Source of the DNA: Candidatus Thorarchaeota archaeon AB_25
GTDB lineage: Archaea > Asgardarchaeota > Thorarchaeia > Thorarchaeales > Thorarchaeaceae
Assembly: GCA_001940705.1 (NCBI GenBank)
Contig: MEHG01000002.1
Coordinates: forward strand, 1-64,000
Direction of reading: 5' to 3'
Length of the DNA: 64,000 nucleotides
Each line of letters begins with the position of its first letter. The first letter of the stretch is position 1. The translations under genes and the position numbers were made by a program. The notes below the pieces were generated by a model that was given only the letters and a program-made list of their open reading frames with translations, was not told where the DNA came from and did no database searches. This document shows positions 20,276 through 23,424 of the stretch, piece after piece.

Positions 20276-20902
20276 CTATTTCTTACAATATCTGAAGGTA
20301 CACCGCTTGTCCCCAGTTGCAATGGTTTCATGACGGGTGAAATGTATCCAGCTCTCAAAGGCCTCTGCTAGGATGTTATCATAGTCGCAGAGTATCGGTC
20401 CCAGCTCAGGTTTGCCTGCCTCTCGAAGGATATCAAAATAGAGGCATTTCTGAATGTCAAAACCAAAGCATTCGTCTTCCTGTTCAACCTCTAGAACTTG
20501 GAAATACTCGTTGTTGTAGTTTGCTTCGTTCCCCTTCCGTATCCACTCGACAAAAGAGTCCCACGGATTATCAGCCTGTTCGAGTGTCGTAGCTTCAGCT
20601 TTGAAGAACTCCTGAAGCATGGCTCGATAAATGGATAGCACGGTCTCCTTAAGCTCAGAGAATGAAGATTTGACCTCACACATCACATCGTCAAGAGCCA
20701 TCACAAAGAGTGAGTTGACACCATGCCTCTTTTCGAGGGGATCTGACATCATATGCTCATAGTTGTTGTAATGGATTTTGAACTGCCGCGTGAAGAGCTT
20801 GTGCATCGATTCTCCCTTGTCATCAAACTGTTTGTTCAATTCTTGTAAAGTCAACTCTGAAAAGTAATCAATCAGCTGCTGGGTCTGTTCATCAGGGGCC
20901 AT
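20276..20902 (-). CDS. L-2-amino-thiazoline-4-carboxylic acid hydrolase-like protein
   Basis: C-terminal ...LCDYDNILAEAFESWIHFTRHETIATGDKRCTFRYCKK resembles the family; assignment from memory only. Confidence 0.5.
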   Translation of the reverse strand: MAPDEQTQQLIDYFSELTLQELNKQFDDKGESMHKLFTRQFKIHYNNYEHMMSDPLEKRHGVNSLFVMALDDVMCEVKSSFSELKETVLSIYRAMLQEFFKAEATTLEQADNPWDSFVEWIRKGNEANYNNEYFQVLEVEQEDECFGFDIQKCLYFDILREAGKPELGPILCDYDNILAEAFESWIHFTRHETIATGDKRCTFRYCKK

Positions 20903-21040
20903 TGTTCAATCACTTTTTTCGAACTTGTAGTGCATTTGAGCCTCTGGTTGGGCTTGATATTCTTGTCTATGTTGTATCGAATCATCTCCTGATAGTAACA
21001 ATATGTGACTCCAATCTGTGACCCTCACAAGTGGCTCCGC

Positions 21041-21050
21041 TATATATACT
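21041..21050 (+). promoter_or_regulatory. TATA box candidate for mini-ORF A
   Basis: TATATATACT about 31-40 nt upstream of ATG 21081. Confidence 0.5.
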
Positions 21051-21080
21051 AAATCTGAGTAGTAATTCTTGTGAAATATC

Positions 21081-21182
21081 ATGGCTCTAACAACTAACTC
21101 ACGAACAACATCCAAACTGAAGAACAACAAAGCAAAGGTTTCGACATTTGCTCTGACTCACGCTATGCTCTATCGGAGGTAG
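21081..21182 (+). CDS. Mini-ORF A, 33 aa
   Basis: MALTTNSRTTSKLKNNKAKVSTFALTHAMLYRR*; shares motif with mini-ORFs B and C; stop overlaps GGAGGT. Confidence 0.5.
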   Translation: MALTTNSRTTSKLKNNKAKVSTFALTHAMLYRR

Positions 21183-21186
21183 TCGA

Positions 21187-21318
21187 ATGGTGTTTTCTGA
21201 GCATCTAATCTGTTGGATATCTGCCCATCTAGATGTGGCTAGTGACTGGTCACCTGGTGGTCACAGAACTGGTCAGTTAGTCTCAGAAACAGCATATCAT
21301 GTGACCAACCTATACTAG
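21187..21318 (+). CDS. Small ORF (43 aa) after mini-ORF A
   Basis: ATG 6 nt after SD GGAGGT (21175-21180): MVFSEHLICWISAHLDVASDWSPGGHRTGQLVSETAYHVTNLY*. Confidence 0.25.
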   Translation: MVFSEHLICWISAHLDVASDWSPGGHRTGQLVSETAYHVTNLY

Positions 21319-21331
21319 GTTGTGAATAATC

Positions 21332-21427
21332 ATGGCTTTACCAAAGAACGATAACCGGTCTGTGCTGAAATACAACCGCGCGCTTCAAACCCGCGCAATC
21401 ACTCATGCTTACACCTACAGGAGGTAA
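21332..21427 (+). CDS. Mini-ORF B, 31 aa
   Basis: MALPKNDNRSVLKYNRALQTRAITHAYTYRR*; N-terminus MAL and C-terminus align with A. Confidence 0.5.
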   Translation: MALPKNDNRSVLKYNRALQTRAITHAYTYRR

Positions 21428-21432
21428 GATGC

Positions 21433-21501
21433 TTGAAAAAGAAGTACAAATCACAGAACATCTCCACTCGTGCAATCACTGATGTCTACTTTAGGAGGTA
21501 G
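21433..21501 (+). CDS. Mini-ORF C, 22 aa, TTG start
   Basis: TTG 7 nt after AGGAGGT: MKKKYKSQNISTRAITDVYFRR*; TRAIT matches B. Confidence 0.45.
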   Translation: MKKKYKSQNISTRAITDVYFRR

Positions 21502-21717
21502 AAATCAATGAGTATCACGTATAACACACTTAATTTTGGTCTGTTTTACAAACAAAATTGTGATTTTAAGTACGGGATACAAAATAATGCTTTGAGAAAA
21601 ATGCTTATATCCAAACCATTAACAAATAATGGTTGGTGTAGCAAACTATATTACGTTTGGAGTTAGAGCAATACAGCTTTCACATTACAGTTACACCGGA
21701 CAAATCTCCTATCTCCG

Positions 21718-21776
21718 AATCTCCTAAGGTGGAGATTCAGCAGCGGCCCTCGTTTGTGTGATCCGGGGGCCGTTGC
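21718..21776 (+). promoter_or_regulatory. Two consecutive stem-loops, candidate leader RNA element upstream of MFS gene
   Basis: AATCTCC-TAAGGT-GGAGATT (21718-21737) and GCAGCGGCCC...GGGCCGTTGC (21740-21776). Confidence 0.5.
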
Positions 21777-21912
21777 AATCCATAGGAAGTTGACAGACAT
21801 GAAACGTGAATCAGAACTCCCAAACAAGGCTATTAAACGTACACGCCTAGAAAGGGTATCAACTTCGATTTCATACAAAGATCACAACCAAAAAATAGAG
21901 TGTTGAAACGTC

Positions 21913-23424
21913 ATGAGTAGGATGAAATCCTTCCTAGGCTTGCCAGACGCCACTGACAAAGTCTTAAGACTGGCAAAAATCATGGGGATCTTGGGACCAT
22001 TAGCCAATGTTATTTTCACCCTGTCTACAACCTTCTTCGTGATCTTTGTAGCTGAAGCTCTTGGTGGGGGTCCTGGAATGTATCTCCAGGGTATGGGGCT
22101 TGTTGGAACTCTTGTGGTTGTGCAGATGGTTGTTCAGATACTGCTCGACTATCCAACTGGCGCAATAGGTGATTGGATTGGCCAGCGATATATAATCGCA
22201 GGCGCCCAGATTTCATATGGTATTGCATTCCTTCTGATTTCCTTTGTCACAGTTGACTCCCCCTACATCTACCTAGTAGGTGTCTATGCATTGATGGGCT
22301 TTGCTCAATCACAGTCGAGCGGAGCTTGGGGTGCCTGGTTTGACAATAACTACAGAGTTGCTATGCCCGGAGATACAGACAGGAAGCAGTATGGCGTATT
22401 CTGGGGCAGGATGGGCATGATGATGCAAATCATAGCAACAGCCTCTTTGATTCCAGGAAGTATCCTAGCAGTGGTGTTCTCAAGGGCTTGGGTGTTTCAA
22501 CTACAAGGCGTCCTAGCATTTGTATTTGCTATGGCTGTCTTTAGACTAGTACGGGACTTCCCTGAAGTCGAAGAAGCGAGAGCTCAGAACGGCGGTCGTC
22601 CAGACATGGGTGAATATGTTTCCATCCTCAAAGGTGGAGTCACTTATCTTTTCAGACATGCATTCGTTCGATACATTGCGATAGGTACCATGCTTGCAGT
22701 GAGCAGCATTATGGTCTGGGGTAATCTCATCCTCTTTCCAATGTATTACCTCTACCTGATCACAGATGTTGGAGTTGCTAGTTTCAGAACACTACTCTTC
22801 ATTCCAGGTATCTTCTCACAAGAGCGTTCTGGAGTCTGGTCACGAAGGTTTGAGCCAAAGAAGTGGATTCCACGGTTCCGCCTGATGCAGACCTGTGGTT
22901 TCATCTTCTTCTGGGTGTTTGCAGCAATCATGACGTTCTTCCCACCTGCAGCGTCTAGCACAAACATCTTGACTCTCTATTGGCCGTTCTCTAGTATTGA
23001 GCTACTGACACTCCCAGTGGAGAACATCGTGCCGATTGCCCTCATATTCACGACCTTTGTATCAACCAGTTTCTTTGGAGGGTTTGCTGAGATTCTGACT
23101 CAGAGAGTGCTGATAGATGTTATTCCAAATAGGATCAGGAACTCTATGTATTCCTTGTTCCCGACTCTCGCAACTCTATTTGCGATTCCACAGATAGCTC
23201 TGTTTGGTTGGTTGATAACCATCATTGGATTCCCCATGACTTTAGCATCATGTGGAGTTGTGTCCTTCATGGGCGTCATGTTGATCATTTATGGTTTCAG
23301 ACATGAAGCTCCAGAGCTTGATGGAGAGACTTGGGCAAATGGGAATGCTGTTCTTCCTCCTGAGGAAGCTGCAGCTGGTGGTGCAGTGGAAGAGTTCGTT
23401 GAAGGAATTCAGCAAGAAGACTAA
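21913..23424 (+). CDS. Major facilitator superfamily transporter
   Basis: Multi-TM protein with MFS-like DYPTGAIGDWIGQRY loop. Confidence 0.8.
   Translation: MSRMKSFLGLPDATDKVLRLAKIMGILGPLANVIFTLSTTFFVIFVAEALGGGPGMYLQGMGLVGTLVVVQMVVQILLDYPTGAIGDWIGQRYIIAGAQISYGIAFLLISFVTVDSPYIYLVGVYALMGFAQSQSSGAWGAWFDNNYRVAMPGDTDRKQYGVFWGRMGMMMQIIATASLIPGSILAVVFSRAWVFQLQGVLAFVFAMAVFRLVRDFPEVEEARAQNGGRPDMGEYVSILKGGVTYLFRHAFVRYIAIGTMLAVSSIMVWGNLILFPMYYLYLITDVGVASFRTLLFIPGIFSQERSGVWSRRFEPKKWIPRFRLMQTCGFIFFWVFAAIMTFFPPAASSTNILTLYWPFSSIELLTLPVENIVPIALIFTTFVSTSFFGGFAEILTQRVLIDVIPNRIRNSMYSLFPTLATLFAIPQIALFGWLITIIGFPMTLASCGVVSFMGVMLIIYGFRHEAPELDGETWANGNAVLPPEEAAAGGAVEEFVEGIQQED

Follow-up and report, generated by a model that had tools for sequence, protein, structure and literature searches.

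Tandem cationic mini-ORFs of Candidatus Thorarchaeota belong to a selected, multicopy family that usually carries a common promoter

The 64,000-nucleotide stretch of Candidatus Thorarchaeota DNA analysed here (the window) contains three short frames in series, A, B and C, whose predicted peptides end alike. Are these frames genes, and if so, what might such peptides do? A preliminary description had reported them as three unlisted frames encoding related basic peptides with a common C-terminal motif, and all three were found exactly as quoted, with a GGAGGT sequence at each end:

21081..21182, + strand: mini-ORF A (ORF1 class), 33 aa, ATG start, MALTTNSRTTSKLKNNKAKVSTFALTHAMLYRR
21332..21427, + strand: mini-ORF B, 31 aa, ATG start, MALPKNDNRSVLKYNRALQTRAITHAYTYRR
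21433..21501, + strand: mini-ORF C (ORF2 class), 22 aa, TTG start, (M)KKKYKSQNISTRAITDVYFRR
21175..21180, + strand: GGAGGT Shine-Dalgarno sequence, overlapping the RR codons and stop of A
21420..21425, + strand: GGAGGT Shine-Dalgarno sequence, overlapping the end of B and serving C
21494..21499, + strand: GGAGGT, overlapping the end of C

The arrangement at the end of A recurs in orthologous units. Direct DNA repeats join the starts of A and B (21069-21098 and 21320-21349, 80% identical) and the ends of B and C (21389-21412 and 21466-21489, 79%).

The common C-terminal motif does not arise by chance. A profile built from 33 ORF2 sequences (A2), which included B and left out A and C, recovered C (E=1.3e-5) and A (E=0.011) in the host's own genome, and an ORF1 profile (A1) that contained A and not B scored B at E=2.3e-6; the score of A itself against A1 (E=3.5e-14) is that of a member. 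The claimed relationship is thus upheld by profiles from which each query was absent. We define the family by a C-terminal ST-x-A-[ILV]-x-x-A-[YF] with a terminal Arg, as recovered by a profile without the query, and by a common operator/TATA block upstream, which at the window lies at 20993-21050; both criteria are satisfied there. We conclude that the three frames belong to an unannotated family of cationic microproteins of 22-39 aa; that they are selected ORFs is shown below, and that they are expressed is inferred.

None of the three frames is interrupted by an in-frame stop in 12 orthologous loci, and variation across these loci is in excess at third codon positions (A, p=0.0079; B, p=0.014; C, p=0.0001). 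The TTG start of C is supported, since six of the 12 orthologues have ATG there. Two neighbouring frames were rejected by the same analysis. A 43-aa frame at 21187-21318, considered as a fourth peptide, gave a third-position p of 0.25 and reads through a conserved operator block, and a 52-aa frame at 21508-21666 gave p=0.74 and contains internal stops in 6 of 12 orthologues.

Within the host's taxonomic family, profile A2 matched 46 of the 47 genomes (Thorarchaeota MAGs), with as many as 11 places in a genome; the 184 Asgard genomes outside that family gave no match. When 21041-21920 was compared by blastn with 59 related genomes, many places were found per genome, mostly at non-orthologous sites, and about 80 were retrieved for comparison. 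The recurring part is ∼110 bp long (window 20990-21098), and nearly everywhere an ORF begins at a constant distance within it, at position +92, reading MALTTNSRNTSVLKNxxxxxSTDALTYAY, then TYRR or xTVVR, then a stop. Several orthologous contexts recurred: before the MFS gene, as in the window; before a second type of MFS gene; downstream of a PolX-like gene; near desulfoferrodoxin-like and GNAT-like genes; and downstream of an elongation factor 1A-like gene. These names were read from translations, with only the MFS genes confirmed by Pfam. As the contexts recur, these are chromosomal units, most of which have been inherited at a fixed site. The earlier suggestion of a duplicated small peptide gene therefore held but was understated, as this is an old multicopy family, and the two checks proposed with it, for homologous frames in related genomes and for substitutions that respect the frame, were both passed.

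Units were chained by following each ORF to the next start preceded by a Shine-Dalgarno sequence. The usual unit consists of ORF1, ORF2, often an acidic ORF3, and a terminator hairpin. ORF1, which begins ∼40 bp past a TATA box, has the consensus MALTTNSRxTS...STDALTYAYxYRR/xTVVR; ORF2, sometimes present in two copies, has the consensus MALAK...ISTDAITxAYFRR; and ORF3, found in many units, encodes 30-40 aa, is usually acidic and ends in (E/D)VLxLEAT. The net charge is about +5/+6 for ORF1/ORF2 and about -2 for ORF3. One peptide predicted from ORF1/ORF2 is VSTFALTHAYTYR. Nearly every stop overlaps the Shine-Dalgarno sequence of the next ORF (GGAGGTAA, GAGGTGA). Tricistronic units also occur without the operator A described below (G000:C10 in the host genome, L221, L226 and L228). 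Many units are free-standing, with their own terminator and a convergent gene or tRNA-like sequence downstream. The tRNA-like sequence (GATTCGAACCC / ACTTGAACTC) was seen on the opposite strand just past the terminator at seven loci (L021, L041, L067, L073, L076, L079 and L081).

Could overlapping signals, and not peptide function, account for the conserved ends? For ORF3 they largely do: its end is encoded by the terminator hairpin GAAGTGCTCGCGTTGGAAGCAACGTGAGCACTTC and a T-rich stretch, with paired changes, and the EVLALEAT ending was rejected as a peptide motif. Units that end in ORF2 have a different hairpin directly after it (AGGCGCTGAGAGAT...ATCTCTCAGCG). In these, CGC or CGT and not AGG encodes the last Arg (the RR codons of terminal ORFs being AGG-CGC, AGA-CGC, AGG-CGT or CGC-AGG). 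Because RR is kept with non-AGG codons, it is conserved as peptide and not only as a Shine-Dalgarno sequence. The preliminary statement that the Shine-Dalgarno sequence does not explain the motif thus held, terminal ORFs that need none still keeping RR.

Coding was assessed on 98 distinct ORF1, 58 ORF2 and 28 ORF3 sequences. As pN/pS across all paralogues was saturated, dN/dS was taken from close pairs only, giving 0.38 for ORF1 (180 pairs), 0.22 for ORF2 (38 pairs) and 0.375 for ORF3. Third-position heterozygosity exceeded that of positions 1 and 2 by column permutation (ORF1, p=2e-4; ORF2, p=5e-5; ORF3, p=0.035), and three to six synonymous codons are in use for each of the conserved motif residues Ser, Thr and Ala. 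The peptides are under purifying selection, which acts most strongly on the C-terminal motif, ST-x-A-[ILV]-x-x-A-[YF]...R. In ORF2 the last ∼14 residues hold most of the conservation, and ORF1 is conserved at both ends. The first ORF1 codons are conserved even synonymously, which suggests an extra DNA or RNA constraint at its start. These are real, selected, multicopy small ORFs, usually with a common promoter.

That promoter, the three-ORF unit with its terminator and a second operator block at the window all go beyond the preliminary description. Two blocks lie at the locus:

20993..21050, + strand: operator/promoter A, TAGTAACAATATGTGACTCCAATCTGTGACCCTCACAAGTGGCTCCGCTATATATACT, an AGTnACA-N3-TGTGACT inverted repeat with more TGTGAC and GTGGCT half-sites
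21041-21049, + strand: TATA box of operator A
21247..21320, + strand: operator/promoter B, TGGTCAC...GGTCACAGAACTGGTCA...TGTGACCAACCTATAC, with GTCAC/GTGAC half-sites and a weak TATA-like element

The 58 bp upstream of ORF1 are conserved at nearly all unit loci, and most units have one operator/TATA block in common (TAGTcACAnnnTGTGAC...TATATAC). The promoter consensus TAGTcACAnnnTGTGACtnCnnnnTGTGACCctnannGTGGCTncGnTATATAC comprises the inverted repeat, further half-sites and the TATA box ∼40 bp before ORF1. Operator B is conserved in all 12 orthologous loci and in other units, and at three loci (L025, L045 and L052) it directly precedes a large gene. Among ∼85,000 species genomes, a strict operator-plus-TATA pattern found 78 stretches, nearly all in Candidatus Thorarchaeota MAGs; the exceptions were two records titled 'Lokiarchaeota' and two titled only 'archaeon'. 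A shorter pattern with one mismatch allowed was present in 66 of 231 Asgard genomes, and a reversed control pattern gave zero matches in every genome listed in that scan, the host's own included. The host genome holds six exact copies, which precede mini-ORF units (C2, C7 and C59), a bactofilin-like gene (C33:3280), a gene for an Arg-rich multi-TM protein (C183:4379) and a nitroreductase gene (C263:1274).

Operator blocks at different loci within one genome are 88.2% identical, whereas those at the same locus across genomes are 82.8% identical (label permutation, p=0.0005). The window block (20993-21086) is 97.9% identical to that of G000:C59, whereas its identity to the orthologous block at L024 is 89.4%. 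This homogenisation would be explained if the copies undergo gene conversion or co-evolve tightly with the regulator. One candidate regulator was a 174-aa gene that lies divergent from one locus class; its only Pfam match was a sub-threshold one of LexA type, and no regulator is proposed.

The remainder of the window locus contains the following:

20276..20902, - strand: divergent neighbour of the L-2-amino-thiazoline-4-carboxylic acid (ATC) hydrolase family (PF14196, E=7.6e-22)
21631..21646, + strand: operator-like element of the GGTTTG-N5-CAAACC type, GGTTGGTGTAGCAAAC, upstream of the MFS gene
21740..21776, + strand: RNA hairpin in the MFS leader, GCAGCGGCCCTCG-loop-CGGGGGCCGTTGC
21913..23424, + strand: MFS transporter gene downstream of the units (PF07690, E=1.5e-14)

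The order is thus operator A with A, operator B with B and C, the GGTTTG-type element, the hairpin and the MFS gene. The ATC hydrolase family neighbour is conserved at orthologous loci, and MFS homologues, a cluster of 17 proteins, lie near the block at other loci. The 27-nt stretch around the GGTTTG-type element (21625-21651) is matched at 93% upstream of G000:C10, a unit of three ORFs in the host genome without operator A, and the peptides are therefore not tied to a single regulator. Similar elements lie near TATA boxes before other mini-ORF units (L220, L227 and L229) as well as before the window MFS gene. Across 10 orthologues, four of the 13 pairs of the hairpin show double-sided compensatory changes. 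The hairpin lies between C and the MFS start and has an invariant GTGTGAT loop, and a conserved CTCCTATCTCC before it could possibly pair with GGAGGTAG at the end of C. An Rfam search of 20900-22000 gave only a sub-threshold miRNA match.

Outside the host family the operator TAGTcACAnnnTGTGAC precedes MFS homologues of the window transporter (L208 and L212), an Hsp20 gene (L216) and bactofilin-like genes. Across several Asgard families (L179-L218) the linked genes encode bactofilin-like, Arg-rich multi-TM, nitroreductase, MFS and Hsp20 proteins, in what appears, judging by the operator, to be a conserved Asgard regulon. Analogous mini-ORFs, another feature absent from the preliminary description, follow the operator in two of these families. 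In family f21, tandem ORFs such as MNRTKQKIEQKIRKDYEQTRIKFALITGA do so (L199-L206), and their profile matched all nine f21 genomes, at 2-13 places each, and one f3 genome. In family f10, MKKDKRNPQGNRTATVYRDLAFRLAASR and its relatives do so (L207, L210, L211, L213 and L215), and their profile matched 7 of 8 genomes. These mini-ORFs have no detectable sequence relation to A-C but resemble them in length (27-31 aa) and in charge (median +6); their coding status rests on protein conservation only, without a codon test. Subject to that reservation, we infer a regulon of long standing, with a microprotein output that varies between lineages. Four of the f10 mini-ORFs (L210, L211, L213 and L215) are followed by a conserved GC-rich GGACGTGCCC...GGGGCTCGGGC...GGGCACGGGTCCCC and then a T-rich stretch, perhaps a structured terminator. 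At a further locus (L197; G034:C1, about 572-574 kb), two operator units lie 1.7 kb apart; in one a mini-ORF is followed by a peptidase S41 gene, and the other is followed by an MFS gene.

Database searches offered no function. A, B and C matched nothing in Pfam, NCBIfam or PADLOC; PHROGs gave only chance-level matches (E 0.057 or worse), as did the PDB for the ORF2 profile (best E=0.76), with none for the ORF1 profile. The statement in the preliminary description that no family could be recognised therefore stands, and of the regulatory, leader, antimicrobial and toxin-like options it had listed, the sequence evidence singles out none. Nothing relevant on such genes in Thorarchaeota was found in the literature searched. 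AlphaFold models A as one long helix with low confidence (mean pLDDT 67, pTM 0.25). The C-terminal hydrophobic moment (last 16 residues) was not above that of shuffled sequences (mean z 0.35 for ORF1 and -0.47 for ORF2). An amphipathic, membrane-active helix is thus not supported, and for the same reasons a binding surface is not demonstrated.

The reading we favour, with a probability of roughly 0.5, is that the peptides are trans-acting intracellular microproteins of a conserved Asgard regulon; expression, translation and a partner are all inferred from sequence alone. In this model the peptides would come from short polycistronic mini-genes that are dispersed over the chromosome and in most cases controlled by one common operator. 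A regulator bound to the GTGAC/GTCAC repeats would induce the units along with a regulon of stress or envelope type. Ribosomes would read the ORFs by coupled re-initiation, and the released peptides would act in trans, with the C-terminal segment as the putative surface that contacts a common partner inside the cell. At the window locus and its orthologues, where the units precede an MFS transporter, they may additionally serve as a translated leader. The trans-acting model is favoured because selection is purifying and because many units end in a terminator of their own that is followed by nothing co-directional; where a convergent gene or a tRNA-like sequence comes after a free-standing unit, there is no target for regulation in cis. 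Against it, a conserved C-terminus with a variable N-terminus also marks ribosome arrest peptides, and in two classes the unit lies immediately upstream of an MFS gene.

Those points lead to the strongest rival, in which the ORFs are cis-acting leader (arrest) peptides. Stalling on the conserved C-terminus at the stop codon, itself only postulated, would mask the overlapping Shine-Dalgarno sequence, and through it the following ORF and ultimately the MFS gene or the terminator would be controlled. In its favour are the concentration of ORF2 conservation in the last ∼14 residues, the overlap of nearly every stop with the next Shine-Dalgarno sequence, the covarying hairpin between C and the MFS gene, the overlap of the ORF3 terminator with the ORF3 coding end, and one locus class in which only a few nt separate the last mini-ORF from the MFS start (L022, L068 and L092). 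Against it, in many units there is no gene downstream that could be regulated, the conservation of ORF1 extends to both of its ends, and the MFS homologues of f10 have the operator but no mini-ORFs, so that a leader is not needed for the link between operator and MFS gene. A short ORF lies just upstream of a candidate regulated gene in two MFS locus classes but not in free-standing units. As a general explanation the leader is unlikely; as a possible additional role it is plausible for those two classes.

Exported signal- or leaderless-bacteriocin-like peptides, with the adjacent MFS proteins as exporters or self-protection, are also unlikely but cannot be excluded. The peptides are tandem, related, leaderless and cationic, ∼30 aa long with a conserved C-terminal motif, and an MFS gene adjoins in two locus classes, one product matching PF05977 'transmembrane secretion effector'. 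Against this, their hydrophobic fraction is 0.42-0.44 without an amphipathic signal, selection is purifying and not diversifying, the units are inherited in essentially all genomes at conserved loci, and most have no transporter, with no secretion signal seen. A toxin-antidote-like module, in which the basic ORF1/ORF2 peptides would be checked by the acidic ORF3 peptide or by RNA, is more doubtful still: opposite charges in one multicopy operon would fit, but ORF3 is often absent, its conserved EVLALEAT end is largely the terminator hairpin and its coding signal is weak (p=0.035). A non-coding repeat, spacer or RNA element with chance open frames is all but ruled out by the synonymous substitution pattern, the lack of stops in 12 orthologues, the use of multiple codons for the same residues and the failure of two neighbouring control frames, although the promoter block and first codons are unusually conserved as DNA and homogenised within genomes.

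A bolder reading can be put forward, to which as a whole we would give slightly less than even odds: a single ancient transcriptional regulon is common to several Asgard lineages and serves mainly to produce basic microproteins of ∼30 residues, often in tandem, and the sets are renewed in each lineage with unrelated sequences (f1, f21 and f10). They would form a class of effectors or signals, acting in stress or at the envelope, that has not been seen before. Among known prokaryotes the Asgard archaea are the nearest relatives of eukaryotes, and almost nothing is known of how they are regulated. A repeated, conserved, unannotated gene set with an operator provides a testable regulon that can be read from the sequence alone, and it raises testable questions: which regulator binds TAGTCACAnnnTGTGAC, what its inducer is and what the peptides bind. 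With products of only 22-39 residues, genes of this kind are liable to be missed by standard annotation.

Several known systems bear comparison. Ribo-seq in archaea, e.g. Methanosarcina mazei, has revealed small proteins (PMC11456600); these too are previously unannotated archaeal ORFs of at most 70 aa, whereas the Thorarchaeota ORFs form a multicopy, operator-linked family (sequence relation between the two sets was not compared). Ibs/Sib and Ldr of E. coli are tandem small toxic hydrophobic membrane peptides with antisense RNAs. They share with the present family multicopy short ORFs at several chromosomal sites, but the Thorarchaeota peptides are basic and polar, with a hydrophobic fraction of about 0.43. 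Regulatory leader peptides such as ErmCL, TnaC and SpeFL are encoded by short ORFs with a conserved C-terminus near the stop. The mini-ORFs likewise have a conserved C-terminus near the stop, and some copies lie upstream of transporters; unlike those leaders, many have their own terminator and no downstream target, and two or three related ORFs occur in series. The multi-peptide leaderless bacteriocins aureocin A70 and garvicin KS are encoded by tandem ORFs for related cationic peptides of ∼30 aa without a signal peptide. The Thorarchaeota mini-ORFs match this description in being tandem, leaderless, cationic and ∼30 aa long, but no dedicated ABC exporter or immunity gene was noticed nearby, and they differ from those bacteriocins in being archaeal, without an amphipathic signal, under purifying selection and present in many chromosomal copies.
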